Of a stretch of 32,037 bases of DNA, positions 1,729 to 21,055 are shown piece after piece. Location of the stretch: IMG/VR virus record IMGVR_UViG_3300021961_000370, positions 1 through 32,037 of that record. One strand, written 5' to 3'. The notes below the pieces were generated by a model, which saw nothing but the letters and a program-made list of their open reading frames with translations, did no database searches and was not told the DNA's origin. Position numbers and translations under genes: made by a program. The stretch is from a virus. How positions within the stretch are numbered: the first letter of the stretch is position 1; the number at the start of each line of letters is the position of its first letter.

Positions 1729-1741
1729 TTAATGATAACAA

Positions 1742-1763: not shown

Positions 1764-1780
1764 TTAAAAAGATAGAAAAG

Positions 1781-2122: not shown

Positions 2123-2131
2123 TTATAAGAT

Positions 2132-2359: not shown

Positions 2360-2371
2360 AAATAAAAAACT

Positions 2372-2983: not shown

Positions 2984-2994
2984 AAAGTTAAATT

Positions 2995-3588: not shown

Positions 3589-3600
3589 AATTAAATAGAT

Positions 3601-4191: not shown

Positions 4192-4214
4192 TAAAAAATT
4201 AAAAATAAAATAAA

Positions 4215-4796: not shown

Positions 4797-4802
4797 TAAA
4801 AT

Positions 4803-5450
4803 ATGTCAATTAGAACAAATATAGAAGATGGTTCAGGTAACGGATATTTAGCAAAAGTATCCCCACAAGGTTTTTTATATACACAAGAGGCTCCCTATCC
4901 CCCAACTGATGAAGAAACAAAAATTACTGTATATCGAGAATTTTTAACATTAAACAATGATGGAACAACAACTGATATGAGGGTTAATGGTTCTACAACA
5001 CCACAAGAATTCTATATACAAGCAGAACCAAATGTAGACATTTATATCACAACAGTTTCGTTTATTATTGCGGGTCCCGGTGCTACGTTAAACGAATTTG
5101 CCAACTTAGCTGCACTAACAAATGGATGTAGGTTTTATTATGAAGATAATAATGGTGAGATTAATATTGGAGCCAACCTTGTGTCAAACTTTGAGTTTGT
5201 AAGATTGTGTCAAGGTAACCCATCTTTTGGTGGTGGAGCTTCAGCTTTTTTAGCAAATAACGTTGTTGGTACTTCCGAAGCATTCATTCCAGTATTTGAT
5301 TTTAGAAACTTTGGATTTAAATGGGGGTTAAAATTAACATCAGCGACATTAAATAGATTAGTTTTAGAGGTTAATGATAATTTAACTCCTAGTGCTAATT
5401 TAACTGGATTTAATGCAATCGCGTACGGATTTAGAAGAGTTTTAACTTAA
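4803..5450 (+). CDS. Virion protein of the DGTG family, divergent copy 5
   Basis: 215 aa. It keeps the N-terminal signature ('NIEDGSGNGYLAKVSPQGFL') but the rest differs from copies 1-4. The body begins 'FLTLNNDGTTTDMRVNGS', then 'PQEFYIQAEPNVDIYITTVS', a 'NLAALTNGCRFYYE' block and 'NLVSNFEFVRLCQGNPSFG'. The body is clearly paralogous to the next gene (shared 'LTLNNDG.TTDM.V.GST..QEFYI'). It therefore combines the array's leader module with a second body type. Probably a structural or receptor-facing protein; a role in binding diversity is only an inference. Confidence 0.65.
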   Translation: MSIRTNIEDGSGNGYLAKVSPQGFLYTQEAPYPPTDEETKITVYREFLTLNNDGTTTDMRVNGSTTPQEFYIQAEPNVDIYITTVSFIIAGPGATLNEFANLAALTNGCRFYYEDNNGEINIGANLVSNFEFVRLCQGNPSFGGGASAFLANNVVGTSEAFIPVFDFRNFGFKWGLKLTSATLNRLVLEVNDNLTPSANLTGFNAIAYGFRRVLT

Positions 5451-5452
5451 TT

Positions 5453-6124
5453 ATGTCTAGAAATGGTAAAATTCTATATAAAAACTTATCTCCAAGTGTA
5501 AATAAAGATGGGTTATTATTTGAGATTGACTCTACTTTTCCACCAGTAGGGGAAGAAGTACAAAATATAATATACGTCCAACCACTAACATTAAACAATG
5601 ATGGTATTACTACTGATATGAAAGTAGATGGGTCGACAACTGTACAAGAATTTTATATAGAATCGGAAAATGATTATGATATTATTATAAATTCAGTTTC
5701 TTTTTTTATTGGTGCAGAAACAAATGTTATTGATTTATTTGAGTTTGGGGCAATAAACGGAACATTATCAAATGGATGTCAATTAGTTTACGAAAGTTCA
5801 AAATACGGTGAAATATTTATTGGGGATAATTTAAATTCAAATTTTGAGCTACTAAGAATGTGTAATATGAATCCAGAATTTGGTTTGACTTCAAATGAAG
5901 CTTTTGAGATTGTACAAACATTTTCAAATAATGATCGTGGATACTTCTTCATATTAAAGTTTTCCAACTATGGTTACGAATCAGAATATAGGGGAGGTTT
6001 AAGACTAAAGAAAAATGAAAAAGAAAGATTAGTTTTTAAAATTAGAGATGATTTAAATTTTATTGTATCTGAACTATCTAGTCTTAATGGAACTGCATAT
6101 GGATATAAAACAGTTACTAGTTAA
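5453..6124 (+). CDS. Virion protein of the DGTG family, divergent copy 6
   Basis: 223 aa, starting 2 nt after the copy 5 stop codon. The N-terminus is the most degenerate of the array ('LSPSVNKDGLLFEIDSTFPP'), but the body matches copy 5: 'LTLNNDGITTDMKVDGSTTV', 'QEFYIESENDYDIIINSVSF', 'LSNGCQLVYE', 'NLNSNFELLRMCNMNPEFG'. The C-terminus is charged ('LRLKKNEKERLVFKIRDDL'). The last 8 bp overlap the 3' end of the convergent minus-strand gene at 6117-6275. Structural protein, position in the virion unknown. Confidence 0.65.
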   Translation: MSRNGKILYKNLSPSVNKDGLLFEIDSTFPPVGEEVQNIIYVQPLTLNNDGITTDMKVDGSTTVQEFYIESENDYDIIINSVSFFIGAETNVIDLFEFGAINGTLSNGCQLVYESSKYGEIFIGDNLNSNFELLRMCNMNPEFGLTSNEAFEIVQTFSNNDRGYFFILKFSNYGYESEYRGGLRLKKNEKERLVFKIRDDLNFIVSELSSLNGTAYGYKTVTS

Positions 6125-6275
6125 TCTGGTCACCATACATATCAGTCTTAGGTTTACAAGTTTCTTTAATTAATTTTTCTACAAATGCAAACATCTTCAA
6201 ACCATTCTTTTCACAATATTCTTTTAAAAGTTTGTGGGTTTGTGGTGTAATTTTTAAGTTTTTATCCCTTTTCAT
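6117..6275 (-). CDS. Small ribbon-helix-helix-like DNA-binding protein
   Basis: A 52-aa ORF on the minus strand: ATG at 6275-6273, stop TAG at 6119-6117. The sequence starts 'MKRDKNLKITPQTHKLLKEY' and continues 'CEKNGLKMFAFVEKLIKETC'. A basic N-terminus, a short beta strand ('NLKIT'), a helix ('PQTHKLLKEYCEKNG') and a second helix ('MFAFVEKLIKE') is the layout of Arc/MetJ-type ribbon-helix-helix proteins, and similar tiny proteins occur in T4-like phages. RHH proteins bind DNA as dimers through the strand and repress promoters. It is the only convincing minus-strand gene here and converges on copy 6 with an 8-bp overlap. Three AGTATGA-type heptamers lie just upstream of its start, compatible with autoregulation and control of the sheath operon. 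The fold is assigned by eye, so confidence is moderate. Confidence 0.65.
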   Translation of the reverse strand: MKRDKNLKITPQTHKLLKEYCEKNGLKMFAFVEKLIKETCKPKTDMYGDQIN

Positions 6276-9330: not shown

Positions 9331-9603
9331 ATGAAAATTAAAAAAAACGGAAAAGTAATTACACTTTCAGAAAGTGATTTACGTAGAATTGCAAAGAGGT
9401 ATTTAAATGAAAGTGACGATTGTTTACCTAAATTTGCAGGAGAATCTGCATTAGATAAGGCAAAATGTTGTGCAAATAAAGCAGGAATGTCTGAGAAAGA
9501 ACTTACTAATGTTAAAGACATCAAAGAATTGGCACAAATATTAATGAAAAAAGGTGGAGATTTTGCTAATTGTCTTTTTACCGTACCAAATGTGTTCGCT
9601 TAA
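9331..9603 (+). CDS. Small Cys-containing protein with a capsid-targeting-like leader
   Basis: 90 aa. The N-terminus 'MKIKKNGKVITLSESDLRRI' followed by 'AKRYLNE' is a basic helical leader ending in L-N-E at residue 27, which fits the (L/I)-x-E cleavage rule of T4-type prohead protease gp21. The predicted mature part starts 'SDDCLPKFAGESALDKAKCC' and carries a cluster of Cys (C31, C47, C48, C70), predicted helical. The serine-rich 'SESDLRRI' matches the leaders of the HAD protein and the 933-aa protein. It lies between two hairpin terminators, so it is a self-contained unit after the sheath. No known enzymatic family. Internal head protein or ejected effector is an inference from the leader. 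Confidence 0.65.
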   Translation: MKIKKNGKVITLSESDLRRIAKRYLNESDDCLPKFAGESALDKAKCCANKAGMSEKELTNVKDIKELAQILMKKGGDFANCLFTVPNVFA

Positions 9604-9623
9604 AAATATTAAAAATTAAATTT

Positions 9624-9648
9624 AAAACCCACCTATGGTGGGTTTTTT
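9624..9648 (+). terminator. Strong intrinsic terminator
   Basis: AAAACCCACC-TAT-GGTGGGTTTT is a perfect 10-bp stem with a 3-nt loop running into TTTTTT, 20 nt after the stop of the 90-aa gene. This is the cleanest rho-independent terminator in the window. Confidence 0.85.
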
Positions 9649-9659
9649 ATTTATAGACA

Positions 9660-9667
9660 ATATTTAT
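9660..9667 (+). promoter_or_regulatory. ATATTTAT element directly before the HAD gene
   Basis: ATATTTAT ends only 5 nt before the ATG at 9673 and 12 nt after the strong terminator. If it is a -10-like element the transcript would be leaderless or nearly so. Confidence 0.4.
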
Positions 9668-9672
9668 ATTAT

Positions 9673-10497
9673 ATGAATATTAAACTTACAGAATCACAAT
9701 ATAAATTATTAAAGGAGTTTAAAAAAAAATCTTATTCATTTGATTGGGATGATAATATATTAATCATGCCAACAAGAATTTATTTAGAATACAACCTTAA
9801 TAATGTCGGTGTATGGGCACCCGTATCAGTATCCACAGAACAATTTAGAAGTATTAGACATAAATTGGGATCTGAGTTTAGATACCCAAATAACGACATA
9901 TTACAAGCGTTTAAAGATTTTAGAGATTATGATGCGTTTATTAACGATACAAAAAATGCGTTATCTCATAATAGATTAGGTCCAAGTTTTCAAAAATTTA
10001 GGGAGGCATTAATAAGTGGTAGTGACTTTTCTATTATTACCGCAAGATCTAATCCACCACAGGCAATTAAAGAAGGAATTAAAATTATAATAAACAATGC
10101 ACTTAGTTTTACTGAAAGAAAAGAGATGGAAAAAAATCTTAATGGGTTGACAATAGATGAGTATTTAAATTTACAAGATTATCATCCAGTATCTTCAGTA
10201 GAATTTGCGAATCAATTTGGGTTAGATGTTAGTGGTACTAAACCTGAGGAGGGTAAAAAAATTGCGTTTAAAAGTTTTGTAGACAGAGTGGTAAATCAAA
10301 TATCTAAAATTAAAGATGATGAAGAATTTGAAGGTATTAGTGTTGGATTTAGTGATGATGATGAAAGTAATGTAGAAGTTATAGAAGATTTAATTAGAAA
10401 TGAATTAAAAAATTTATACCCAGAAATTAATTTTATTATTTATGATACATCAGATCCAAAAGATACTAAAAAGAAAAGAATAATAATTAAAAAATAA
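9673..10497 (+). CDS. HAD-superfamily phosphatase-like protein with a capsid-targeting-like leader
   Basis: 274 aa. The leader 'MNIKLTESQYKLLKE' ends in L-K-E at residue 15, a good (L/I)-x-E prohead-protease site, and the enzyme core begins directly after it. HAD motifs: motif I 'FDWDDN' (D24 nucleophile, D26 acid/base), motif II T123 in 'SIITARS', a Lys in 'KKIAFKSFVDRV' (K196 or K200) as motif III, and motif IV 'GFSDDDESN' (D228-D230). HAD enzymes transfer phosphate from substrates such as nucleotides, sugars or nucleic-acid ends using Mg2+; the substrate cannot be read from the sequence. A 27-residue insertion with 'LNLQDYHPVSSVEFANQFGL' near residues 160-185 could be the cap. It lies between two terminators and promoter-like elements, just before the tail tube. 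The catalytic residues look intact, so activity is likely. Confidence 0.75.
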   Translation: MNIKLTESQYKLLKEFKKKSYSFDWDDNILIMPTRIYLEYNLNNVGVWAPVSVSTEQFRSIRHKLGSEFRYPNNDILQAFKDFRDYDAFINDTKNALSHNRLGPSFQKFREALISGSDFSIITARSNPPQAIKEGIKIIINNALSFTERKEMEKNLNGLTIDEYLNLQDYHPVSSVEFANQFGLDVSGTKPEEGKKIAFKSFVDRVVNQISKIKDDEEFEGISVGFSDDDESNVEVIEDLIRNELKNLYPEINFIIYDTSDPKDTKKKRIIIKK

Positions 10498-10514
10498 TTT
10501 TTTTTAAAAACTGA

Positions 10515-10522
10515 ATATTTAT
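10515..10522 (+). promoter_or_regulatory. ATATTTAT element upstream of the tail tube gene
   Basis: ATATTTAT followed by 'ATAATAAATAAG', 47 nt before the tube ATG, the same layout as at the sheath gene (43 nt). The tube is needed in high copy, so its own late promoter is plausible. Confidence 0.45.
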
Positions 10523-10569
10523 ATAATAAATAAGATAATAACTATAACAAAGAATTAAAAAAGAAAAAA

Positions 10570-11058
10570 ATGGCAGATTTATTAATGAGAATGCCTGTTC
10601 CTTACGAACCGTTAAGAAAGAATAGGTTTATTTTGAGATTCCCAGATGAATTGGGAATTCAAGAATGGTGGGTTTCTACAACATCTAGACCTAAATATAC
10701 GAGTCAGGAAGTGGAAATTCCATTTTTAAATACATCTACTTATGTGATTGGTAGATTTAATTGGGAATCTATTTCCGTAACATTTAGAGATCCTATCGGA
10801 CCTTCCGCAACACAAGCGTTGATGGAATGGGTACGTTTACACTCTGAAACTGTAACAGGTAGACAAGGTTACGCAGCGGGTTATAAGAAAGACGTAGAAT
10901 TAGAGATGTTAGACCCAACAGGTGTTGTTGTTCAGAAATGGATCCTACAAGGTACGCAATTGAATGACGCAGATTTTGGTTCATTAGATTATTCATCTTC
11001 TGATTTGGCGGATATTACATGTACGCTCAGGTTTGATAGGGCGATAAACGTGTTTTAG
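10570..11058 (+). CDS. Tail tube protein (gp19-like)
   Basis: 162 aa, almost the length of T4 gp19 (163 aa). Family features: the N-terminal 'PYEPLRKNRFILRFP', then 'SRPKYTSQEVEIPFLNTSTY', 'FNWESISVTFRDPIGPSAT', the helix 'QALMEWVRLH', 'GYAAGYKKDVELEMLDPTG' and the end 'LADITCTLRFDRAINVF'. This is the beta-barrel plus helix plan of myovirus tube proteins. Hexameric rings stack on the baseplate around the tape measure to form the channel for DNA. It has its own upstream element and a strong terminator 26 nt after the stop, so it is probably a single-gene transcript. It is separated from the sheath by two genes with capsid-targeting-like leaders, which is unusual because 18 and 19 are adjacent in T4. 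Confidence 0.92.
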   Translation: MADLLMRMPVPYEPLRKNRFILRFPDELGIQEWWVSTTSRPKYTSQEVEIPFLNTSTYVIGRFNWESISVTFRDPIGPSATQALMEWVRLHSETVTGRQGYAAGYKKDVELEMLDPTGVVVQKWILQGTQLNDADFGSLDYSSSDLADITCTLRFDRAINVF

Positions 11059-11083
11059 AATTCCTTCATCGAATATAAGACTT

Positions 11084-11125
11084 TCCCTTTTATATATATA
11101 TTTATATATAAAAGGGATTTTTTAT
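11084..11125 (+). terminator. Intrinsic terminator after the tail tube gene
   Basis: TCCCTTTTATATATA pairs with TATATATAAAAGGGA (15-bp stem, short AT loop) and is followed by TTTTTTATT. The loop and right arm contain ATATTTAT (11098-11105), the element seen upstream of other genes, 44 nt before the next ATG. Confidence 0.8.
11098..11105 (+). promoter_or_regulatory. ATATTTAT element inside the terminator
   Basis: The octamer lies in the loop region of the tube-gene terminator, 44 nt upstream of the acidic-protein ATG at 11150. It may be a promoter for the next gene embedded in the terminator, or an accident of the AT-only hairpin. Confidence 0.3.
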
Positions 11126-11149
11126 TAACATTTAATTAAAGTATATAAT

Positions 11150-11470
11150 ATGAAAAAGAATATAAATAACATAACTGAAGAGATAGTTAGAATTAAGTCT
11201 CTTTTTGGTGAAAGTAGATTATCTGGTAATCTTGTTGAAGAATCTGAGGATGATTCTCCTTTGGGTGAGTACGGAATATTTGATGATATTGAAAATGATT
11301 TGATGGAGATGTCTGATCGTGATAGATCTTATTATTTGCAATCAATAATATCTTTTTGTCAGGATTTATTGTATAATTCTGAATATGATGATGACGATGA
11401 TGATGACGATGATGATGATAAGTTAACTAATAGGACTATCTTTGGTGGTGGTGAATATGATAATCTATAA
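11150..11470 (+). CDS. Highly acidic small protein with a capsid-targeting-like leader
   Basis: 106 aa. The leader contains 'NITEEIVRIKSLFGESRL' and 'GNLVEE', with L-V-E ending at residue 30, a match to the (L/I)-x-E prohead-protease rule. It is closely similar to the leaders of the 428-aa and 273-aa proteins downstream. The rest is very acidic: 'ESEDDSPLGEYGIFDDIEND', a short helix with one Cys, then eleven consecutive Asp residues. No family recognised. T4 packages small internal proteins with such leaders, some of which block host nucleases (for example IPI against GmrSD), and acidic phage proteins can mimic DNA. That comparison is only a lead here. Terminators lie on both sides. Confidence 0.6.
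   Translation: MKKNINNITEEIVRIKSLFGESRLSGNLVEESEDDSPLGEYGIFDDIENDLMEMSDRDRSYYLQSIISFCQDLLYNSEYDDDDDDDDDDDKLTNRTIFGGGEYDNL
11387..11419 (+). repeat. GAT/GAC trinucleotide tract coding for 11 Asp
   Basis: Eleven successive GAT or GAC codons inside the acidic-protein gene. The tract is a simple-sequence repeat that could expand or contract by slippage in steps of three without breaking the frame. Confidence 0.85.
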
Positions 11471-11500
11471 TTAAAAATAACATTATTTAATTTAAAAAAA

Positions 11501-11533
11501 AAATCCTTATCATTAATTTGATGAGGATTTTTT
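11501..11533 (+). terminator. Intrinsic terminator after the acidic-protein gene
   Basis: AAATCCTTATCA pairs with TGATGAGGATTT (one G-U pair) around a 6-nt loop and runs into a T tract. The position, about 30 nt after the stop, supports it. A TTG start at 11518 in the next frame falls inside this hairpin and was not used. Confidence 0.75.
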
Positions 11534-11544
11534 GTTATTTAGAT

Positions 11545-11552
11545 ATATTTAT
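11545..11552 (+). promoter_or_regulatory. ATATTTAT element before the PG-binding gene
   Basis: ATATTTAT followed by 'TATATATATAAAAAAA', 12 nt after the preceding terminator and 22 nt before the ATG at 11575. The terminator-then-element arrangement marks a new transcription unit covering 11575-15666. Confidence 0.45.
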
Positions 11553-11574
11553 TATATATATAAAAAAATTTATT

Positions 11575-12861
11575 ATGAAAAGAATTAATAACTTAAATGA
11601 AGAAATAAAAAGGATTAAATCTTTATTTACTGAAGAAAGGATGTTCGGTAATTTAGTGGAACAGGAAGAAGTTTTATCTGAGGGAAATGTTCTTAAATTG
11701 GGATCCAAAGGTGAAGACGTTGGTGCATTACAAAACCTTTTAAAAATAGAACCTGTTGACAATAAATTCGGTAATATTACTAAAGGTAAAGTAGAAGAAT
11801 TCCAAAAAAACAACGGACTTAAGGTAGATGGTGTTGTTGGTGAGGAAACTCTAAAAGCGATAATTAAAAAATTTACTAATAAGAATGAATCTGTTGATTT
11901 AAATGAAGATGTCTCTGACGATATCAATAAACTTAGTAAAACAATTGTAAATCAAGAGGTTTTAGATGATAATGGAAATCCATTACCTACTTCTGATTGG
12001 GTAAAGTCATTAGATATGTTTAAAAACGCCCCAACTTTAGATACTAAAAATCAACCTGAACAAATTAAAGGGGAGTTAGAGAGTGAACCAGTAAAAAACA
12101 AACCTGAAGAAATAAAAATAAATAACCAAAACGATAAAAAAAGTGGGGATAGTGAAGGTGAAAACGAAAAGCAGGATGATGGTTCATTAAATAAAAAAAG
12201 AGGTGGTACAGGTACAGAAGCCAAAGGACAAGGAATGGATCAAAAAGATTTTAATAAATCTAGATCCGACATAGAATCTGAAAGAGGTGGGTTAAGTGTC
12301 TTAGGTATGAAACTAGATAGAGTTGACATTATTAATAATAAAGCGGTTTGTAGAAGACTTTTGAATAGTATGATTAAATTGTCTAAAAATGGTAAAACGA
12401 GACGAGAGTTAGAAAATTATGAGTTTGATGATAAGGGTGGTAATGCTCATACAGGTAAAGAATATATTGAGCGTATTGAGTGGTGTTTAAGTAATTTTTA
12501 TAATGTTTATGAAAAAGAAGGGTGGTCAGGTAAAATTGATACTTTATTACAAACATGGAAAATACCTATGCCTGAGAAAGTTTCTAATGCGGTTCAAGGA
12601 GAAGTTTATAAAATAATTAGTGATGATAATAATCATATAGGTTGGATTAAAAAAGTTAAGAATAATAAATTTAGGTTTAAAGGGAAGGGTGTTGCACCAT
12701 TATTAGATAATACAAAAGGTAAAGCTGGTAAATTTAACCCTAAATATGAAAAAAATGTTTATAAGGCAATAAATGTTAATCCTAATGAATATGATATTGT
12801 GATACAAAAATCTAAAGATCAAGAAAAGGATTCGGGAATATTTGTTTTATCCCCAAAATAA
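11575..12861 (+). CDS. Peptidoglycan-binding-domain protein with a capsid-targeting-like leader
   Basis: 428 aa from the ATG at 11575; the frame is open to 11518, but that extension lies in a terminator and precedes the leader. The leader has 'EEIKRIKSLFTEER' and 'GNLVEQ', with cleavage predicted after E29 (L-V-E). Residues 39-98 are a typical PG_binding_1 domain: 'LKLGSKGEDVGALQNLL', 'DNKFGNITKGKVEEFQKNNG', 'KVDGVVGEETLKAI'. Residues 150-240 are a low-complexity, charged Lys/Glu/Asn linker. The C-terminal 190 residues form an unrecognised domain ('AVCRRLLNSMIKLSKNGKTR', 'RIEWCLSNFYNVYEKEGW'). No muramidase or peptidase catalytic motif was seen, so cell-wall binding rather than cutting is the supported reading. 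The next gene starts 3 nt after its stop, so the two are co-expressed. Confidence 0.75.
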   Translation: MKRINNLNEEIKRIKSLFTEERMFGNLVEQEEVLSEGNVLKLGSKGEDVGALQNLLKIEPVDNKFGNITKGKVEEFQKNNGLKVDGVVGEETLKAIIKKFTNKNESVDLNEDVSDDINKLSKTIVNQEVLDDNGNPLPTSDWVKSLDMFKNAPTLDTKNQPEQIKGELESEPVKNKPEEIKINNQNDKKSGDSEGENEKQDDGSLNKKRGGTGTEAKGQGMDQKDFNKSRSDIESERGGLSVLGMKLDRVDIINNKAVCRRLLNSMIKLSKNGKTRRELENYEFDDKGGNAHTGKEYIERIEWCLSNFYNVYEKEGWSGKIDTLLQTWKIPMPEKVSNAVQGEVYKIISDDNNHIGWIKKVKNNKFRFKGKGVAPLLDNTKGKAGKFNPKYEKNVYKAINVNPNEYDIVIQKSKDQEKDSGIFVLSPK

Positions 12862-12864
12862 AGT

Positions 12865-15666
12865 ATGAGTAGAAAAATTATTATATCGGAATCTCAATAT
12901 AAAAGGGTTTTTTTAAATGAAGTGCAAACTTTAGACACAGATCCAATAAATCCCAATAGTGAGTTATCATTAGATATGATTCCAGGTACTATTAATGTAC
13001 CATGCAAACCTAAAAACATAATTGGTGGTAGTATATCTGGTTTGGATCCATCTATTGATTGGTGTGAAGTAACTAAATTCTCAGATTGTTATATGGGTAA
13101 TTGCTCCTCAAAGTATAAAGGGGTAGTATACACCTGGAAACAGGATTCGGAATTGGGTGATAAAAGAGTTAATCCGTTACATAAAGAATTTGAGGGGTAT
13201 ATTTTAAATTGGAATAAGGTGCTGAATAAGTTTAATAACTTAAAAAGTTTATCTAAGTGGGATGGATCAATTTTACTTATTGATAAAAAATGGTTAACAA
13301 GCAATGATATTAGTAAAGTATTTAATAGAAATTCTTATAATAGTAATAGTATAGGTATTGGTACTACTAATATTTTTAATCCTGGATGGGTAATACAGGA
13401 ATACTTTAAATATAAAGATGCATTAGAAACTGATTTATTAAGTATTATATATCAAGAGGAATGGAAAACTTCTGTTAAAGAAGCCGAAGAAGAATATAGA
13501 AAAAAATATCAAAAATATAAAAATGAATTAAATAAATGGAATGAAAATTTTTTATTTAAAATTATTGCAAAAGAATCTGAATATTATACAAAAAACAATA
13601 TTTATCACCCTTCTTATAATGTTAATGTTAGACAAGAGGAAAATTACCCTAGACCATTAAAATTAGATACAAAATACTTTGATAAAAACAACCCTTTTGG
13701 TAAAAGTCATACTAAAAGTGATGAAACTTCTATAAGTTATGATTATAAAAAGAAAATAAAACCTGATAATGTTAAAGATTTTCAAGATTGGTTAGATAGT
13801 AAAAATTTAAAATGGGTTAATGGTGTAAATTTAAATAAGGGTGCTGGGTATGGTAATTTTGGTTCTTACACTTCCGCAGCTTGGGACATGTATGGTATAA
13901 TCTATGATTATGAAAAAGGTAATACAGGAAATAAAATACCCCCAATGCCTGTGGCACCAGGGAAACCAGAAATTTTATTACCTAATACTAAGAGAAATAA
14001 TCTTAGTGATTTAGAAAATACAATAGAAAATTTTAAACTTTTATTATCTGCAATAGACAGTTTTAATAGTTTAATACTTACACAAAATAATAATGATATA
14101 GTAGAATTTTGTAATACTAACCTTAAAGTCAATTCTTTAGGTCAGGCAGTACCTGAAAGTAGTGTAGTGAGGATAAATTCTGGAACTAAGGACAGTAAAA
14201 TGTTGTTTTGGTATAGGGATATATGTCCAGATAATGGTGGTGTGTGGGTTTATTCACAAGGTAAAAATAGTAAATCTTGTGGTTGTGTTAGAACACCTAA
14301 TATAGATGGACTCTATTCTTCTGGTAAAGTTACTAATTTTGCAAAAACATTAGAATATAGATTATCTACAACGGATTTACGTACTCCTTTTGAAAAAATT
14401 AGTGATTGGGCAGAAGGTTGTTCGGATGATTGGCATTGTTTAGCTGATGTTGCATCTATTGGAGTATTATTTTTACCAGTACCTGGTTTAAATGTTGCGT
14501 TATCCGCAGCAATTGATTTAATAAGTGCGGCTGGATATGTTATCGAAGGAGAAGAGGGGTGGGAACTCAATGCGGGATTAACGTTTTTGGGGGCGGCGTT
14601 TTCAGGGTTTGATGCTTATAAATATACTAATAAAGCTTTAAAAGGATCTAAAGACGTAATAAAATTAAGTAATGGGTTAAATAAGGGGTTGCAAAATGCT
14701 GAGAAAATTAAATTAAGTCCAGAGTGGTCAAAATTAAGTAAAACCGAACAAGCAACTAAATACTCAAATGAATTTAGGAAAGGTTTAAAAGGTATGACAT
14801 CTCAAGAATTAAAAGATTTATCTAATATAATGCGCACTTTTTCTAAGGAAGGTGATGAATTACTAATGGGATTACAAAAAGTAATGGGGGATTTAAAAAC
14901 ACTTAGTACCGCAGAAAAAGCTGGTTTTAAAGACATAACAGATAAAATCTTAAAAGATCAAAATTTTAAAAATATAATAGCAAAAGAAATTGTAGAAAAT
15001 GGCGGAAAAGTAGATTTAAAATCAATAATTAAAAAACATGGATCACAAAGTATTTTAAAAAGTACTTTAGTGAATTCAGCTTTATTTAGTGCAATGCAAG
15101 TTTGGCCAGAAGAAACTGCAGAACTTATTAAAAAGGCGATTAAATTAATTGATCTTATACCAGGTGTTGACGGAGCACTTTCTAAATACTTAGGTATGAA
15201 AGATAAAGGTGGTACTGATGATGCAAATTCCCATTATATTTTAAATAAATTAAAAGAATTAGAGAATTATGGACCAACAATAGATGCGGTGAATAATATA
15301 ATAAATTCTGAATACTATTCATTTTTACTTAAAAAATATGATATTAAAGTAGATACAGAAATAATAAAATTAATTCTAAATGGTAAAAACAGTATAATTG
15401 GTAAACCTTTGGAGGTTGCTTTAATGTTATTAAATGATTTTATTAGTATAGAAAAAACTCTTACTGATGAAGGAAAGACATTTGACGAAATAAAAAATAA
15501 ACTACAAGAAAATTATGATCATATAATTAATTATTTAAAAGATGAAAGTAAAAAAGAAACTATTTTTGATAAATTAGACGCAGAAATGTCACCTTGGTCT
15601 AAAGAAGAAGAGAAAAGGCTTAAAGAAGAAGGTTATGATGTTGAAAATATGAGTGTAGTTTTTTAA
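12865..15666 (+). CDS. Large protein with a capsid-targeting-like leader and a hydrophobic pretoxin-like segment
   Basis: 933 aa. The leader 'MSRKIIISESQYKRVFLNE' ends in L-N-E at residue 19 and shares 'ESQYK' with the HAD protein leader. There is a charged helical or coiled-coil region around residues 190-230 and Cys-containing motifs near residues 440-475 ('GVWVYSQGKNSKSCGCV'). Residues 526-587 form a long hydrophobic Ala/Gly-rich hairpin, including 'ADVASIGVLFLPVPGLNVAL' and 'WELNAGLTFLGAAFSGFDAY'. That pattern, with a Pro-Gly turn and an Asp after the second strand of Ala, resembles the pretoxin segments that precede effector domains in polymorphic toxins, and membrane-inserting hairpins. 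The C-terminal 350 residues are helical and Lys-rich, with no enzyme recognised. The gene is translated 3 nt after the PG-binding gene. A capsid-carried effector or channel protein is an inference. Confidence 0.6.
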   Translation: MSRKIIISESQYKRVFLNEVQTLDTDPINPNSELSLDMIPGTINVPCKPKNIIGGSISGLDPSIDWCEVTKFSDCYMGNCSSKYKGVVYTWKQDSELGDKRVNPLHKEFEGYILNWNKVLNKFNNLKSLSKWDGSILLIDKKWLTSNDISKVFNRNSYNSNSIGIGTTNIFNPGWVIQEYFKYKDALETDLLSIIYQEEWKTSVKEAEEEYRKKYQKYKNELNKWNENFLFKIIAKESEYYTKNNIYHPSYNVNVRQEENYPRPLKLDTKYFDKNNPFGKSHTKSDETSISYDYKKKIKPDNVKDFQDWLDSKNLKWVNGVNLNKGAGYGNFGSYTSAAWDMYGIIYDYEKGNTGNKIPPMPVAPGKPEILLPNTKRNNLSDLENTIENFKLLLSAIDSFNSLILTQNNNDIVEFCNTNLKVNSLGQAVPESSVVRINSGTKDSKMLFWYRDICPDNGGVWVYSQGKNSKSCGCVRTPNIDGLYSSGKVTNFAKTLEYRLSTTDLRTPFEKISDWAEGCSDDWHCLADVASIGVLFLPVPGLNVALSAAIDLISAAGYVIEGEEGWELNAGLTFLGAAFSGFDAYKYTNKALKGSKDVIKLSNGLNKGLQNAEKIKLSPEWSKLSKTEQATKYSNEFRKGLKGMTSQELKDLSNIMRTFSKEGDELLMGLQKVMGDLKTLSTAEKAGFKDITDKILKDQNFKNIIAKEIVENGGKVDLKSIIKKHGSQSILKSTLVNSALFSAMQVWPEETAELIKKAIKLIDLIPGVDGALSKYLGMKDKGGTDDANSHYILNKLKELENYGPTIDAVNNIINSEYYSFLLKKYDIKVDTEIIKLILNGKNSIIGKPLEVALMLLNDFISIEKTLTDEGKTFDEIKNKLQENYDHIINYLKDESKKETIFDKLDAEMSPWSKEEEKRLKEEGYDVENMSVVF

Positions 15667-15674
15667 TAACTAAT

Positions 15675-15682
15675 ATATTTAT
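15675..15682 (+). promoter_or_regulatory. ATATTTAT element before the EF-hand gene
   Basis: ATATTTAT followed by 'TATAAAAGAT', 10 nt before the ATG at 15693 and 8 nt after the previous stop. The whole 26-nt spacer is little more than this element, so its preservation there is suggestive. Confidence 0.4.
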
Positions 15683-15692
15683 TATAAAAGAT

Positions 15693-16514
15693 ATGAGAAA
15701 TATTAAAGAAGAAATAAATAGAATAAAGTCATTATTTAATGAAGAAAGGTTATATGGAAATTTAATTAATGAACAACCATTTGCAAATGATGCAAATAGT
15801 GATGGTAACATTGATGAGCCAGAGGCGATAGATTTTTTAAAATCTTTAGATTATAGTGTTACAAAATTAAGTGATGAAGGTAATAGTGTTGCAGGTTTTT
15901 GTTATAGTAAAGATATAATAAAAGATATTTATACTAAATACAAATTAAACTTTAAAGATTCTTCTGTATCTACAGGAATACATTCTAGTGGGGGAATGTG
16001 TTTTATTTCATCAGTTAGAAAAGCTTTTGTATCAGGTGTTTCTAATCTAAATAAATTAGTTTTTTGGGATAATCAGTATATTAGTTTTTTTGTTTCTTTA
16101 GAATTGCCTATTGATTTATCTACGGCTGAAAATTTTAAAAAGACTTTTGAGGATTTAGACATATCTTCACCTATAGGTGTTTTAGTTAAAGGTAATGAAG
16201 CTATAGGTAAAGATGATGATACAACAAAAGTCCAATGGCTAAGATATGAGGCACGTATAGATAGAAATTACGAAAATTATAGTAGCCTTAAATTTTTAGA
16301 TTTTTGGGATAAAGATGGTAAAAAAATGAAAATATACGCACCTTTAGTAAATAAAATACAGACAAATGGATATAACCCACTAACAGATCCTAGTAATCCA
16401 ATGTCTGCTAGAAAATACGGAACAAGTTTGGATTTAACAGGAATAATAACTACAGGATTAAGAATAGGGGAAACAGGAACAGTTAATGATTTATTTGGTA
16501 AACTTACAACATAA
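15693..16514 (+). CDS. EF-hand protein with a capsid-targeting-like leader
   Basis: 273 aa. The leader 'RNIKEEINRIKSLFNEERL' followed by 'YGNLINE' gives a predicted I-N-E cleavage after residue 27 and is nearly the same as the leaders at 11150 and 11575. Five residues later comes a textbook EF-hand loop, D33-A-N-S-D-G-N-I-D-E-P-E44, with Asp/Asn at positions 1, 3, 5, 7 and 9, Gly at 6, Ile at 8 and Glu at 12. A single Ca2+-binding loop of this kind also appears in dockerin-like and extracellular proteins. The rest is a mixed alpha/beta domain ('SSGGMCFISSVRKAFVSGVS', 'DISSPIGVLVKGNEAIGKDD') without a recognised family. The next gene starts 2 nt after its stop. A Ca2+-dependent fold or switch after ejection is an inference. 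Confidence 0.6.
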   Translation: MRNIKEEINRIKSLFNEERLYGNLINEQPFANDANSDGNIDEPEAIDFLKSLDYSVTKLSDEGNSVAGFCYSKDIIKDIYTKYKLNFKDSSVSTGIHSSGGMCFISSVRKAFVSGVSNLNKLVFWDNQYISFFVSLELPIDLSTAENFKKTFEDLDISSPIGVLVKGNEAIGKDDDTTKVQWLRYEARIDRNYENYSSLKFLDFWDKDGKKMKIYAPLVNKIQTNGYNPLTDPSNPMSARKYGTSLDLTGIITTGLRIGETGTVNDLFGKLTT

Positions 16515-16516
16515 TT

Positions 16517-18901
16517 ATGAAAAATAGGAAACAAATATTTTTAGACACCAAAAAATTTAATTTGATGGTTGAAAGAATGGACTCAAAATATACGTACAAT
16601 GAGTCGGTGGAAAAATTAAAAAAACTAATAACTGAAGGTTTTGGTAAAACCATCATAAGGGCATTTATGGGAGTTTCTGAGATAAGTGACGCATCAAAAT
16701 TATTTTTAAGAGCCATAGGAGATGATATAACATCCATTGATTCAATGCTTAGGAGAGTAGATTTAAAAGATTTTTTAAGATACGTAGAATCTGATCTAAT
16801 TACTTATTTAAAAAATTCTGGTAAATACACTAAATTTGTGGAAGACGATATTAAAATGATGATGAAATCTATCAATGCAGTAAGTAGTGCTAGAATGGGT
16901 GGTACTAAAAGTACTGTAACAGGATTTATAGAACAATTTCCACCTGGACAATCTTTAGAATCTATTAAACGTGACCTTAGAGCATTTTATGAAGATAGTC
17001 CAGAATTATTTAATAGTGGTATGCCTACAAGCTCTAGAATATCAAGTATAGATGAATTTGACGCAAAAATTAAAGATCGTATTAGAGTGGATCTTAAGTA
17101 TCTATCTGATACACATTTTAAACCATTGATTAAAGAAGTTGTAACCACTACATGGGGTGAGTGGACACCTAAAAAAATATTAAAAATCTCACAAGGTTAC
17201 GATGGATACTTTATTTTTAAAAAAGGTGATAAGAAATTATTATTTATAGAAAGATCACAGTACCCTAAATTTCAGGATGTGATTGAGTCTAAAGGTTATC
17301 AAGCGGTAGATACTAATAAACCATTAAAAAATCAAGGATCTTCAGGAAAAGAGTTTCAACGTACTATAACAAACAAAGATGGTAATACAGTAGTTATAAC
17401 GCGAACTGCTTTAGGACAGTTTTTAATTAATACTGCAAAAGCAAAAAATTGGCTCGGAAAAATTATGTATGGGACATCAGCCTCAGGTTTAATAGGTTTA
17501 TTTGTAGATTGTTTGTGGACAACAATGGATACTGATCCGAAATGGAGGGAAGATAAGACGACTGGTCAAAAAGAAAAAATAGAATATGATTTTAAGGAGT
17601 GTTTACTTCCTTTATTATATCCTCCAGATCCTGAGTTTTTTAATACACCACAAAAAATTGGTTTTAATTGGCTAGATGTTATTCCATTTGTAATGCCGTT
17701 TCATCAGTTAATAAATTTTGTGAGTCCTGACTTATCTGATTATTCTGATTTTTTAAATGGTGTAAATACAAAAGTTAAAAATCTTGTATATGATGCAGAG
17801 GTTGAAGCTATGGAACCTTTAACAATTGTTCAAATTTTAAATGGTAATTGTGATGGATATGATGCATCAAATATTTTAAGTAGTGTAATTTCAGAATCAG
17901 GTTTAGGAGAAAAAGGAGAACAACTAAATAAAATTTTAGGTATGGTTGGGATTAATACTAACTTAGACAGTGATGAGTTTGAAAAACAATTACAAGAATT
18001 GGCTAATAAGGCAGAGCAAGCTAAAGAATTAAAAGACCAAATTAAAAAAGAAAAAGATAGGATTCATATAGAGGTTCAAGGTTTGCCTGATAAGTCAAAA
18101 TTTAAAGTGGAAGGTATAGATATTAAATCAAAAGTAAAAAAAGCATGTTTTTCTGCAAAATGTAACGTAATAAGTAAAAAAGTAAATGAATTGGCTAGAT
18201 TACAAAGAGAAAATCCAAATAACCTTAATTGTGATCTTAGTGAGGGTTGTATCGATATTTATACAGATGCTGGATATAAAGATAAAAATACTGCTACTGG
18301 TGTTGATAAATGTGAAACAAATAAAAAATTGTTAACGGAATTATTTTTATTCGGAAGCAATCAAGAAAAATCGGTAGGTGGATCAGGTTTTGAAACTCCA
18401 GATTTTATTAAGAATATTACTTGTAGTGAAAGTAATTTAGTAAAACTTAAAAGTAATATGGATACTTGTGAAGAATATAATAAGAAAAAACAAGAATTAG
18501 AAAATGAAGGTGGGTTAAAAGTAGATATCGAAATAGATCCTGTAGAACCTGTCGATGAAATTAAAGGTGATGACTATGATTGGCAAAGTTTTGTAATAGA
18601 TAGTGATCCAAAAAATATTTGTTTGGTTACAGACACAAATTTAACTTCTAATCCGTCACTTTTTAACATGGTAGAAAGTGGTAGACTACCAACAGATACT
18701 TATAAAATTGTAACTAAACCTAACGGGTTTAAAATTCCTGTTTATAAATTTAATGATTTAAATATCACTACAATGGCGAAGACAAGTTGGTGTAAAAAGG
18801 GTGTTGGTATACGAAATTCAGAAAAATCTGAATCTGATTGTGTCGGAGATTTAATTGGTACTTTAAAATCGTCTGGATGTTGGGGAAGTTTTTATGAGTA
18901 A
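16517..18901 (+). CDS. Large Cys-containing protein of unknown function, possible capsid-targeting leader
   Basis: 794 aa. The N-terminus is basic and helical ('MKNRKQIFLDTKKFNLMVER'), with a clear (L/I)-x-E site later at 'KKLITE|GFG' (residue 40) and a weaker M-V-E at residue 19. So it fits the leader class more loosely than its neighbours. Further features: a helical region to about residue 230; hydrophobic segments at about 321-337 ('ASGLIGLFVDCLWTTMD') and 384-401 ('WLDVIPFVMPFHQLINFV'), which may be membrane-active; a charged coiled coil at about 490-530; then a Cys-rich region ('KKACFSAKCNVISKK', 'NLNCDLSEGC', 'DKCETNKK') and C-terminal Cys ('SDCVGDLIGTLKSSGCWG'). No catalytic motif recognised. 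It is probably co-translated with the EF-hand gene. The large size and odd Cys content make it a candidate ejected protein. Confidence 0.55.
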   Translation: MKNRKQIFLDTKKFNLMVERMDSKYTYNESVEKLKKLITEGFGKTIIRAFMGVSEISDASKLFLRAIGDDITSIDSMLRRVDLKDFLRYVESDLITYLKNSGKYTKFVEDDIKMMMKSINAVSSARMGGTKSTVTGFIEQFPPGQSLESIKRDLRAFYEDSPELFNSGMPTSSRISSIDEFDAKIKDRIRVDLKYLSDTHFKPLIKEVVTTTWGEWTPKKILKISQGYDGYFIFKKGDKKLLFIERSQYPKFQDVIESKGYQAVDTNKPLKNQGSSGKEFQRTITNKDGNTVVITRTALGQFLINTAKAKNWLGKIMYGTSASGLIGLFVDCLWTTMDTDPKWREDKTTGQKEKIEYDFKECLLPLLYPPDPEFFNTPQKIGFNWLDVIPFVMPFHQLINFVSPDLSDYSDFLNGVNTKVKNLVYDAEVEAMEPLTIVQILNGNCDGYDASNILSSVISESGLGEKGEQLNKILGMVGINTNLDSDEFEKQLQELANKAEQAKELKDQIKKEKDRIHIEVQGLPDKSKFKVEGIDIKSKVKKACFSAKCNVISKKVNELARLQRENPNNLNCDLSEGCIDIYTDAGYKDKNTATGVDKCETNKKLLTELFLFGSNQEKSVGGSGFETPDFIKNITCSESNLVKLKSNMDTCEEYNKKKQELENEGGLKVDIEIDPVEPVDEIKGDDYDWQSFVIDSDPKNICLVTDTNLTSNPSLFNMVESGRLPTDTYKIVTKPNGFKIPVYKFNDLNITTMAKTSWCKKGVGIRNSEKSESDCVGDLIGTLKSSGCWGSFYE

Positions 18902-18929
18902 ATATATTTATATTTTTTTTTTATATATT

Positions 18930-18937
18930 ATATTTAT
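18930..18937 (+). promoter_or_regulatory. ATATTTAT elements before the gp26-like hub gene
   Basis: Two copies lie in the 64-nt spacer, at 18904-18911 and 18930-18937, separated by a run of ten T. The second ends 28 nt before the ATG at 18966 and is the more likely to act for this gene. Confidence 0.4.
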
Positions 18938-18965
18938 ATTAATAATAGTTTTAAAATAAGTTTAT

Positions 18966-19745
18966 ATGGACAATTTGTCAAATATGGATCCTAATTATAT
19001 ACCGGAAGATTTAAGAACTCCTTACGATATAATAGAATTACCATCTCAAGGACTTTTATATAAAAATAAAATTTCCAAAGTAAAGGTTGAGTATTTAACT
19101 GCGATGGATGAAAACATTTTAAGTTCTCCTAATTTAAGTGCGAATCCAGATGAAATGATTTCTACACTTTTAAAAAGAAAAGTAAAAGATTTAAATATAG
19201 ATATAGATGATTTACTAATTGGTGATAGAATTGCATTACTAATATTTTTAAGGGTAACTGGATTAGGAGAAAGTTATAAACAAATTGTTTATGATCCTGA
19301 AAGTAATGATTTTGTTGAGGGTGATATTGATTTAAGTTCTTTAAAACAGAAAAAATTACTTATTAAACCAGATGAAAATGGTGAATTTGACTATATTTTA
19401 CCCAACTCAAAGAAAAAAATTAAATTTAAATTTCTCACTTCTAAAGATGATAAAGAAATAGATATTGCCGATGAACTACAGATGAGACGTAGTGTTGAGA
19501 AAGTTTCTAATAAGATAACACTTAGATTAGAAAAAGCGATTACAGAAATAGACGGAGAACGAGATAAAATTAAAATATCTAACATTATTAAAAAATTACC
19601 TATATTAGATTCAAGAAGTTTGAGATCTTATATAGAAAAGAATGAACCAGGAATTGATTTTAATACAAATGCTAGGATCCATGGGGGAGGATCCGTAAAT
19701 TGCTTTCTTAGACTCGGAAAGAATTTTTTATGGCCTGAACTCTAA
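18966..19745 (+). CDS. Baseplate hub protein, gp26-like (T4_baseplate family)
   Basis: 259 aa. 'TPYDIIELPSQGLLYKNK' followed by 'VKVEYLTAMDENILSSPNL' is the hallmark opening of the T4 gp26-like baseplate family: 'LPSxGxxY' then 'lTxxxExxL'. Also present are 'LLIGDRIALLIFLRVTGLG', 'FKFLTSKDDKEIDIADEL' and the C-terminal 'LRLGKNFLWPEL', equivalent to the family's 'FFWP'. T4 gp26 (208 aa) helps assemble the central hub; this copy is somewhat longer. It lacks a capsid-targeting leader and breaks up the run of leader-bearing genes. A second ORF overlaps its last 47 bases in another frame (19699-19875), recalling the T4 order 26-51. No Shine-Dalgarno precedes its ATG. Confidence 0.75.
   Translation: MDNLSNMDPNYIPEDLRTPYDIIELPSQGLLYKNKISKVKVEYLTAMDENILSSPNLSANPDEMISTLLKRKVKDLNIDIDDLLIGDRIALLIFLRVTGLGESYKQIVYDPESNDFVEGDIDLSSLKQKKLLIKPDENGEFDYILPNSKKKIKFKFLTSKDDKEIDIADELQMRRSVEKVSNKITLRLEKAITEIDGERDKIKISNIIKKLPILDSRSLRSYIEKNEPGIDFNTNARIHGGGSVNCFLRLGKNFLWPEL
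19675..19694 (+). promoter_or_regulatory. GGATCC/GGATCC hairpin carrying a GGGGGAGG ribosome-binding-like sequence
   Basis: Two palindromic GGATCC copies at 19675-19680 and 19689-19694 can pair as a 6-bp stem with an 8-nt loop of ATGGGGGA. The loop and right arm spell GGGGGAGG, the best Shine-Dalgarno match in the window, 8 nt before an AUU codon at 19699. Since other genes lack such a site, it may drive the overlapping ORF and be occluded or exposed by the hairpin. It also encodes 'HGGGS' of the gp26-like protein, so some constraint may be at the protein level. Confidence 0.45.
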
Positions 19746-19875
19746 TTATTTATCTTATTTACATAAAGAAATTGCATTTTTAGTGAAAAATGGATACTCT
19801 TATTCAGATATTATGATAATGCCTACTTACTCTAGAAAAATATTTATAAATATGTTAGTACCTAAAACTGAATAA
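19699..19875 (+). CDS. Overlapping 58-codon hub-accessory ORF (gp51-like?), AUU start proposed
   Basis: After the gp26-like stop, the +1 frame encodes 'NSNYLSYLHKEIAFLVKNGY' and then 'SYSDIMIMPTYSRKIFINML', ending 'VPKTE'. This resembles small T4-like hub proteins of the plan 'lHkeIf.L...g.fsy.di..MP...R.f...l', placed after gene 26 as T4 gene 51 is. T4 gp51 itself is much longer, so the name is tentative. The frame has no ATG before the conserved block. It is open from 19699, where AUU follows GGGGGAGG by 8 nt, inside the gp26-like gene. I recall that T4 gene 26 itself uses an internal AUU start for gp26*, so a rare AUU start is not without precedent. The alternatives are a +1 frameshift near 'CTC TAA' giving a fusion, although that site is not slippery, CUG at 19735, or a sequence error. 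Confidence 0.5.
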   Translation: MAFLDSERIFYGLNSNYLSYLHKEIAFLVKNGYSYSDIMIMPTYSRKIFINMLVPKTE

Positions 19876-19889
19876 ATATATTTTTTTTG

Positions 19890-19897
19890 ATATTTAT
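19890..19897 (+). promoter_or_regulatory. ATATTTAT element before the 381-aa gene
   Basis: ATATTTAT followed by 'TTATAAAAAGAT', 12 nt before the ATG at 19910. A run of eight T (19881-19888) precedes it. Confidence 0.4.
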
Positions 19898-19909
19898 TTA
19901 TAAAAAGAT

Positions 19910-21055
19910 ATGAAAAAATCAATCGAAGATATTAATTTTATAATCGAAGGTATTAATGTGTATATAAATAACCTATTATCCGAACAAGTTACTTTTGACC
20001 CCGATCCACCAGGTGAAGATAGTGATGAAGAAGAGGAAATAAATAAATTAAAAAATCAAAAATCTTCTGGAGAAAAAATAGATGCTAAAGAAGTATATAG
20101 AGATATAAAAAATGGTGATTTTGAAAAAATTTTCCCACAAGAAGAATTAAAAAGATTAGAGGAGTGGAGAGATTCTGGATATAAAGTTGGTGAATATACC
20201 ATAGAAGATGGTAAATATGCTGGAAAAGTGATTACCTCAGCCGCTTATGATAGTTTTAGAATTGCTGCGGGATACAAAAGTGCTAAAAATAAAATTTTAA
20301 AAAATAAAGTAGAGAAAAAAGTTTCACCCGATGCGTGTAATTGTATTGCATTGGCTAGAATGTATATAGATAAAAATGAACCAAGTGAAGAGGAAACAAT
20401 GTGCCCTAGGTCAAGTCCAAAGGATTGTGAAAAAACCTTTATGAGTAAGTTTGATGAGGACATGAAAACCAAAAACGAATATAGACAGAAGACTATGGAA
20501 GATTATCTATCAGATTGTAAGAATTCCCATCTGGAGGTGATGTTTAATAGAAAAAAAAGGGATGATTATGTTTTAGGAAATAACCCTTGGTGTGAAAACT
20601 GGAATGATGAAGTAAAAAGCTCTTTTGAAAATTTGGATAGTCAGATGATATCATTATTAAATCAATGGTTTAGGATTGGTACGAAGAAAAAAGGTGATTT
20701 AGAATCATCTGAGTCTAAAACTGTTGCTCAAGAAATAGGTAGTCACAATAAAGTCACTATTAATTTTGATTATAAGATGGAATTTTCTAATGGGGGAACT
20801 TTTACGGACTGTGAACCTTGGAGGAAAGATTTATCGGCAAGTAGGCATGAATTCACCCCAATACAATGGAGTCCACTATCTAAAGGTAAAACTGTGGTAT
20901 TAGAAAAGGATGGTAAATATGCTAGATTAACTTTTAAACATGCTGAAAAAGGTAAACCAAATGAAGGTATGATGACTTGGATAGAAAGTGAAAATGATAC
21001 AAGTCCCAATTGTGTAGAGAAACGTTGGACAGGCCAAATTACAAGATTTGATTAA
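19910..21055 (+). CDS. Cys-containing protein of unknown function with a capsid-targeting-like leader
   Basis: 381 aa. The leader 'MKKSIEDINFIIEGINVYIN' continues 'NLLSEQ', giving two possible prohead-protease sites: I-I-E|G at residue 13 and L-S-E|Q at residue 25. Residues 26-45 are acidic ('DPDPPGEDSDEEEEINK'). A helical region follows, then a Cys-rich stretch ('DACNCIALARMYIDK', 'MCPRSSPKDCEKTF', 'YLSDCKNSHLEVMF', 'NNPWCENWNDE'), then a beta-rich C-terminal domain ('KVTINFDYKMEFSNGGTFTD', 'YARLTFKHAEKGKPNEGMMT', 'CVEKRWTGQITRFD'). No family recognised. The tape measure starts 13 nt after its stop, so they share a transcript. Ejected internal protein is inferred from the leader; an extracellular or periplasmic destination would fit the Cys content. 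Confidence 0.55.
   Translation: MKKSIEDINFIIEGINVYINNLLSEQVTFDPDPPGEDSDEEEEINKLKNQKSSGEKIDAKEVYRDIKNGDFEKIFPQEELKRLEEWRDSGYKVGEYTIEDGKYAGKVITSAAYDSFRIAAGYKSAKNKILKNKVEKKVSPDACNCIALARMYIDKNEPSEEETMCPRSSPKDCEKTFMSKFDEDMKTKNEYRQKTMEDYLSDCKNSHLEVMFNRKKRDDYVLGNNPWCENWNDEVKSSFENLDSQMISLLNQWFRIGTKKKGDLESSESKTVAQEIGSHNKVTINFDYKMEFSNGGTFTDCEPWRKDLSASRHEFTPIQWSPLSKGKTVVLEKDGKYARLTFKHAEKGKPNEGMMTWIESENDTSPNCVEKRWTGQITRFD

Follow-up and report, generated by a model that had tools for sequence, protein, structure and literature searches.

Results

The window analysed here is the whole of the 32,037-base virus record IMGVR_UViG_3300021961_000370 from IMG/VR, whose end falls before any capsid gene. Its tail-gene interval contains eight genes, starting at 9331, 9673, 11150, 11575, 12865, 15693, 16517 and 19910, whose products open with a short leader ending in an (L/I)-x-E site. 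We propose that these leaders are very probably capsid-targeting propeptides of the phage T4 type, and that the proteins bearing them would be packed into the head, cut by a gp21-type protease and ejected. An earlier note on this DNA had listed the eight leaders; all eight open reading frames (ORFs) exist, and the sites, re-read from the DNA, lie 15-40 residues in. The ATG at 11575 is internal to a longer, mechanically called ORF. The leaders and two of the predicted mature parts are as follows (a slash marks the predicted cut; bits are scores with the profile hidden Markov model, HMM, of the class in question).

9331..9411, + strand: class B leader (MKIKKNGKVITLSESDLRRIAKRYLNE/S; LNE/S, 27 residues) of the 90-residue protein encoded by 9331-9603; class B HMM, 68.9 bits
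9412..9603, + strand: predicted mature part of the 9331 protein; singleton cluster 197, no homologue among the proteins of the relatives described below
9673..9717, + strand: class A leader (MNIKLTESQYKLLKE/F; LKE/F, 15 residues); 44.4 bits
9718..10497, + strand: predicted mature HAD-like protein; cluster 1, 46 loci, some on overlapping records
11150..11239, + strand: class C leader (..EEIVRIKSLFGESRLSGNLVE/E; LVE/E, 30 residues) of an acidic 106-residue protein ending at 11470; 56.9 bits
11575..11661, + strand: class C leader (..EEIKRIKSLFTEERMFGNLVE/Q; LVE/Q, 29 residues) of a 428-residue PG_binding_1 protein ending at 12861; 61.2 bits
12865..12921, + strand: class A leader (MSRKIIISESQYKRVFLNE/V; LNE/V, 19 residues) of a 933-residue protein ending at 15666; 44.8 bits
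15693..15773, + strand: class C leader (..EEINRIKSLFNEERLYGNLINE/Q; INE/Q, 27 residues) of a 273-residue protein ending at 16514; 53.6 bits
16517..16636, + strand: fourth leader type (..FNLMVERM..YNESVEKLKKLITE/G; ITE/G, 40 residues) of a 794-residue protein ending at 18901; cluster 35
19910..19984, + strand: fifth leader type (..INVYINNLLSE/Q; LSE/Q, 25 residues) of a 381-residue protein ending at 21055; basis, the homologues' site

Six loose patterns, classes A-F, were drawn up post hoc from such leaders, and three of them matched in the window: class A (ESQY) at 9673 and 12865, class B (SESDLRRI) at 9331, and class C (EEIxRIKSLFxEERLxGNLxE) at 11150, 11575 and 15693, whereas 16517 and 19910 represent two further types outside all six patterns. 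An N-terminal pattern match occurs in 6 of the 24 window ORFs that reach 60 residues, compared with 0 of 162 internal 50-residue windows (class E being unscored internally); judged by these counts, the putative leaders in the window exceed chance expectation. The anchor tail genes (sheath at 6421, tube at 10570, hub-like protein at 18966, and the genes at 21069, 23319, 26917 and 27252) carry no such leader; the earlier note had said as much of the sheath, tube, gp26-like and tape measure genes.

Relatives of the window were collected via the sheath (319 confirmed in IMG/VR, 80 loci kept; contigs up to 253,879 bases), and in them the same leaders recur genome-wide. In G013, a 254-kb relative with 305 ORFs, a leader pattern is found in 43 ORFs as against 12 of 1034 internal windows, with class E (6 of the 43) again unscored internally. 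Profile HMMs built from the leaders recovered, at 12 bits or more, 276 of 1438 distinct proteins (105 with class A, 79 with C, 58 with B, 25 with D and 9 with F), spread over 88 of 430 clusters of mature parts; in the 11575 family (cluster 5) 27 of 28 members, and in the 12865 family cluster all 40, bear the class C and the class A leader, respectively. Three controls were run. Among 885 proteins from four other phages the profiles hit 6, of which 5 belong to LR756508, a phage with leader-like groups of its own; among 7117 internal windows they hit 18, and 11 of these fall inside fused cargo ORFs; among 246 T4 proteins the profiles of classes A, B, C, D and F hit none. With class E included, G013 has 44 leader genes, 7 among the tail genes and 37 outside the tail interval, and what had been taken for a cassette of the tail module is instead part of a genome-wide set.

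Because the HMM seeds come from the set that was counted, a seed-free test was also made, in which all N-terminal 45-mers of a genome were compared pairwise and pairs with homologous remainders were dropped. G013 gave 105 N-terminal pairs (58 genes, 48 with [LIVMF]xE) versus 2 internal ones. T4 gave 6 versus 0, and its largest group, of 3, consists exactly of the internal proteins IPI, IPII and IPIII. The corresponding counts were 7 versus 1 in G002, 9 versus 1 in G006, 8 versus 0 in G016, 2 versus 3 in RM378, 6 versus 1 in Mel-JY01, 13 versus 0 in Flavobacterium phage immuto and 152 versus 16 in LR756508. A handful of pairs must therefore be regarded as background, near which the shorter relatives lie, and only G013 and LR756508, and modestly immuto, stand clearly above it. 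A looser run gave 123 versus 3 for G013, 105 versus 4 for half of LR756508, 28 versus 1 for immuto, 9 versus 9 for Mel-JY01 and 2 versus 6 for RM378, and the stricter run was preferred. In immuto the leader-like groups are small, with 4 and 3 genes, and a gp21-type protease is present.

Leader-like groups were also seen in huge phages. In the 642-kb LR756502.1 (bases 1-400000, loci L230-L249), 664 N-terminal pairs of proteins non-homologous at E 0.01 were counted versus 20 internal ones; they form one connected group of 111 of 561 genes, and most of the 40 listed start like MKHLKKYKIFES or MKYLKRYNES, a different leader family with perhaps an aromatic-tolerant x-E site. The 484-kb LR756508.1 (loci L193-L204 and L208-L220) has groups of 29 genes (xLRRIVKEE..) and 19 genes (MKFKxLLxE). 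A YRG motif seen by eye in several of the MKFKxLLxE proteins had suggested ADP-ribosyltransferases, but Pfam on 7 of the 19 gave no support and the assignment was rejected.

Homologous mature parts can bear different leaders. More than one leader class occurs in five clusters of mature parts: 13 (B, D, F), 45 (B, C), 61 (A, D), 12 (A, D) and 83 (A, C). In cluster 45 the sequence EGLxSxLKGIGGMFKGTGY follows a leader of either class B or class C, and in 4 of the 6 members shown this same domain starts directly past LDE, TNE, LNE or INE regardless of the leader in front, the others being similar. Fused genes were found as well. The 12865 and 15693 genes form one ORF of 1164-1199 residues in 7 relatives' ORFs, and in all 7 a class C leader persists intact in the interior, with NLVNE or NLINE at its end; of the long 12865-15693 ORFs checked, 2 of 9 lack the internal leader, and 15693 is separate in 5 relatives including the window. 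In 7 ORFs the HAD-like domain comes second in a fusion with another protein, and YLTE/S (4), YLVE/S (1) or LLTE/F (2) stands ahead of it; in the five with YLTE/S or YLVE/S the leader is lost and the site kept. These fusions would be best explained by cutting at the site. In addition, the HAD-like homologue of a 642-kb phage bears a different leader, FDQFIRE/S (MDILRFDQFIRE/S), and in 5 records of 634-735 kb phages the alignment of HAD-like homologues starts at residue 21-23.

The site itself is conserved. A [LIVMF]xE motif lies within reach after the leader core in 69 of 71 class A, 54 of 54 class B and 59 of 59 class C leaders (182 of the 184 distinct A-C leaders), and in 25-31 % of internal windows of equal length. 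The class B columns read L 94, E 100, D 92, R 82, I 98 and V 77 %, followed by L 63 or I 28 % at P3 and E 89 % at P1, beyond which no residue exceeds 35 %. In the 933-residue family of 12865 (25 sequences, out of 29 ORFs listed for the 40-member cluster) mean column identity is 20 %, and only E9, Q11 and the P1 glutamate E19, all of them in the leader, are invariant, the P3 residue L17 being nearly so. The HAD-like family of 9673 (27 of 33 listed ORFs) keeps E15 in 27 of 27 and L13 in at least 90 %, while in some members NQKQ or SQYQ has taken the place of its ESQ core. In the 16517 family (cluster 35) all 5 distinct N-termini have the [LI]-x-E, and in the 19910 family all 7 homologues have L[LI]xE, although the next 15 columns there average 30 % identity. 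The drop in conservation right after x-E that the earlier note had proposed as a check is thus present in several families (class B, the 933-residue family, 19910) but not in the HAD-like family and others.

The protease and the major capsid protein (MCP) were searched for in the 20 largest of the 80 kept relatives. PF03420 scored above its cut-off in 3 of the 20 records (G013, G017 and G020) and a whole MCP gene lies in the same three; the expected gp21-type S77 protease is therefore present in every relative record with a whole MCP gene (3 of 3). G002, whose sheath is 85 % identical, starts inside the MCP gene, with 96 % identity to the G013 MCP, and four further weak MCP matches of 28-38 residues were disregarded. 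The relatives' protease matches one solved structure, T4 gp21 (5JBL, 5.5e-18), with GEADHP aligned over GELNAP and GVSSRG over GVASRG; the T4 positive control matched as expected. The MCP pro-region of the relatives ends ALLNE/STS or ALLTE/ATD, cleavage being predicted by sequence, and T4 gp23 reads SFLTE/AEI at residue 65, in keeping with the 65-residue gp23 propeptide given in PMC5694885. The acidic scaffold protein of the relatives contains many (L/I)xE motifs. The MCP pro-region and the scaffold sites therefore support the (L/I)xE site independently of the eight genes.

As to what the putative cargo proteins are, Pfam and PHROGs on the eight gave only PG_binding_1 as a clearly informative match: the 11575 product has PF01471 (1.4e-13), which confirms the peptidoglycan-binding domain. 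The claim of a HAD enzyme at 9673 stands on motifs seen by eye (DWDDN, ITAR, GFSDDD) and found no support from Pfam, PHROGs or a fold search; the AlphaFold2 model is poor (predicted local distance difference test, pLDDT, 70.6; below 50 for residues 1-5 and 7-18), and the best Foldseek match had E 0.015, with no HAD among the matches listed. Pfam on 87 of 88 cluster representatives gave PG_binding_1 in 6, MORN in 2 and an M23 peptidase in 1, together with dUTPase/DCD in a false-positive cluster; the rest had E above 4e-4 or an ambiguous meaning. We also observed that the very acidic 106-residue product of 11150-11470 has an Asp run, its weak match to the prohead family phrog_1064 (E 0.012) being likely compositional. 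In the 15693-16514 product an EF-hand-like D-x-N/S-x-D-G-x-I motif lies directly past the leader (DANSDGNID in the window) and occurs in some form in all 5 aligned homologues.

A further common property of these genes is an upstream element. The motif ATATTTATW matches at 9660..9668 (+ strand), where it is a candidate late-promoter element upstream of 9673, and, also on the + strand, at the following positions.

6370, 10515, 11098, 11545, 15675, 18904, 18930, 19890, 23291

Counting both strands, the window has 23 matches versus 9.0 expected, and 0 of 100 shuffles had as many. ATATTTAT, chosen from late-region genes of G013 and tested on all relatives including G013, lies at most 70 bases upstream of 49 of 132 leader genes (Fisher p 3e-5), 57 of 133 structural genes (p 4e-8) and 142 of 721 other genes, a set that surely includes unrecognised late genes. 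It is strongly oriented (reverse counts: leader 4, structural 12, other 50). Since ATATTTAT is shared upstream, the leader genes look co-expressed with structural genes, and ATATTTATW may be a late promoter element of this phage group. The T4 late promoter TATAAATA was tried and rejected, being upstream of 0 of 44 leader, 5 of 70 late and 16 of 191 other genes in G013.

Discussion

In the model that we favour, each leader would bring its own protein into the prohead during head assembly, probably by binding to the scaffold core. The gp21-type S77 protease would then cut after (L/I)-x-E while maturing the MCP and removing the core, and the mature proteins would stay in the head with the DNA until they are ejected at infection. 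Several interchangeable leader types would serve dozens of otherwise unrelated proteins genome-wide, eight of which are encoded in the tail-gene interval of the window. The idea of capsid-loaded cargo is thus favoured by the computational tests; its framing as a tail-module cassette is not, and its principle was already known from T4.

It is conceivable that the leaders are instead docking tags for the tail tube lumen, a membrane or a replication compartment, which would not be removed and whose x-E motif would simply be part of a binding helix. The eight leader genes do sit among tail genes, and in class A the residues E9 and Q11 equal the putative P1 glutamate in invariance; we nevertheless consider this improbable, given that unlike leader types all end in (L/I)xE, as does the MCP pro-region, that the five YLTE/S or YLVE/S fusions dispense with the leader ahead of the HAD-like part and keep the site, and that most leader genes of G013 (37 of 44) lie outside the tail interval. 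More improbable still is that the repeated N-termini reflect ordinary homology among diverged paralogues of which the leader is merely the best conserved part. Some clusters, such as cluster 12, are indeed paralogue arrays, and similarity below the reach of BLAST would make 88 clusters an overcount. However, homologous mature parts with different leader classes (5 clusters) largely refute this explanation, the proteins range from 61 to 1214 residues with domains as different as PG_binding_1, M23 and MORN, and internal windows behave otherwise (2 versus 105 pairs in G013).

A more serious alternative, albeit one that we consider clearly less probable than general packaging as cargo, is that only some of these proteins are injected and that others (e.g. 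12865, 16517 and 19910) belong to the structure of the head, neck or tail and simply need maturation by the protease. This would suit the wide distribution of the 12865, 9673 and 11575 families (clusters of 40, 46 and 28) and their place among tail genes; on the other hand, the 12865 family, with its 20 % mean column identity, is very variable compared with the sheath (72-93 % in the 80 loci kept). T4 tail proteins are not known to be processed, which we also count against it. A mixed picture, in which some of the widespread proteins (12865, 9673, 11575), or else 16517 and 19910, are structural and not injected, overlaps with the cargo model and is quite conceivable, if less probable than not.

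Several observations weigh against the cargo model itself. Packaging and cleavage are predictions from sequence comparison, the window stops short of the capsid genes, and the protease evidence comes from the relatives' records only. Patterns and HMM seeds were taken from the same proteins that were later counted; a dUTPase among the counted leader proteins was taken to be a false positive, and there may be more, while distant homology may merge some of the 88 clusters. Class D reaches only 5 of 25 in the site count, its core pattern already including the site. A conserved [LIVMF]xE is also found in 10 of 32 leaderless families, in which the whole N-terminus is conserved, and site conservation was rejected as a sole criterion, given that these control families pass it. 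Past the LLKE/FKKK site of 9673 identity does not drop. More generally, only 4 of 13 leader families (clusters 3, 13, 36 and 61) show a fall in conservation of at least 0.2 past the chosen column, as do 2 of the 13 control families printed; in this count the chosen column does not always coincide with the leader site, and over-long ORF calls distort clusters 1 and 5. Mature cargo shows no clear depletion of (L/I)xE, the ratio being 0.86 versus 0.93 in other proteins, with overlapping intervals. Finally, the structure models are poor (pLDDT 70.6 for 9673 and 41.4 for the 933-residue protein of 12865).

The closest known system is that of T4, where IPI, IPII, IPIII and Alt likewise combine a short N-terminal leader on otherwise unrelated proteins with an x-E site and a gp21-type protease. 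The passages of PMC12373910 that deal with T-even internal proteins describe the N-terminal leader as the only part they have in common, credit them, as injected proteins, with inhibition of the host's type IV restriction enzymes and mention at least 10 of them reported in T-even relatives; according to PMC9391042, IPIII is functional in the cytoplasm without its capsid-targeting sequence (CTS). T4 has one leader family (MKTYQEFIAE-like) and three internal proteins, in contrast to the at least five leader types, the 44 of 305 G013 genes, the swaps and the polyprotein fusions seen here. Against the profiles of classes A, B, C, D and F no T4 internal protein exceeds 0.5 bits, and class E (MKFxxLITES) has a T4-like layout by eye. 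The present leaders would work like the T4 CTS, with no homology to MKTYQEFIAE detected in classes A, B, C, D and F.

The ejection proteins of phiKZ and SPN3US are comparable in that, according to PMC5694885, a prohead protease cuts several proteins inside the head and these are believed to be ejected; their propeptides mostly exceed 100 residues (one has 20), with SQE and ALE as named sites, and the same source gives 10-20 residues for T4 internal-protein propeptides, those of SPN3US being mostly longer. Unlike this phiKZ type, the window leaders measure 15-40 residues and the relatives' protease matches T4 gp21. The DarA/Hdf defence proteins of phage P1, presented in the abstract of PMC12810830 as anti-restriction proteins tied to head assembly, are likened here by description alone. 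Among the titles and abstract starts listed from the open-licence PMC literature, we found no description of such leaders in the present phage group, and, the principle being known from the T4 internal proteins, it is the scale, the several leader types, the swaps and the polyprotein cargo that look new.

We consider it somewhat more probable than the contrary that large environmental contractile-tailed phages share such a virion-loading address-tag code, with exchangeable leaders, 40 to more than 100 proteins per genome and polyproteins cut in the head. If true, N-termini would directly reveal which proteins uncultured phages inject. Provided that such leaders denote cargo, sequence alone would yield a list of dozens of injected effectors for each phage, most of them unannotated, and the question of what large uncultured phages inject would become directly testable. 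The leaders would double as ready-made packaging tags.

Other features of the window and its relatives

Elsewhere in the window the following genes could be named.

70-6124: fibre-like gene run; by eye
6421-9267: tail sheath; phrog_23, 2e-58
10570-11058: tail tube; phrog_4542, 1.7e-26
18966-19745: hub-like protein; phrog_150, 1.6e-7
26917-27246: baseplate wedge-like protein; phrog_7145, 3.7e-4

The window also encodes large unnamed proteins, and ARAGORN found no tRNA in it. Shine-Dalgarno-like sites (genes of at least 100 residues) precede 0 of 22 genes in the window, 9 of 234 in G013 and 6 of 155 in Flavobacterium phage immuto, compared with 97 of 168 in T4 and 69 of 192 in a Microcystis phage; this near-absence hints at a Bacteroidota host. 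A Prochlorococcus host, suggested by a relative's contig (L205) in a single-cell assembly, was not adopted because the near-absent Shine-Dalgarno-like sites fit Bacteroidota better.

Within the fibre-like run, 2372-6124 comprises six tandem genes for products of about 190-220 residues that look paralogous by eye, most with an xxDGxGxxxxAxV-like N-terminus, and these are probably fibre or decoration proteins. Between the fibre genes and the sheath lies a small ORF on the - strand (6117-6275; MKRDKNLKITPQTHKLLKEYCEKNGLKMFAFVEKLIKE..), which has look-alikes in the same place in G013 and G017 and perhaps encodes a small DNA-binding protein. Among the leaderless control families with a conserved [LIVMF]xE, cluster 44 may be an unrecognised leader family of the 16517 type. 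In G013 (L084-L085), the stretch at about 7.9-27.1 kb encodes diverged paralogues of cluster 12, several of which start xxYLNKIVEYLVDDTxI without an x-E leader, while their relatives in other genomes have class A or D leaders.

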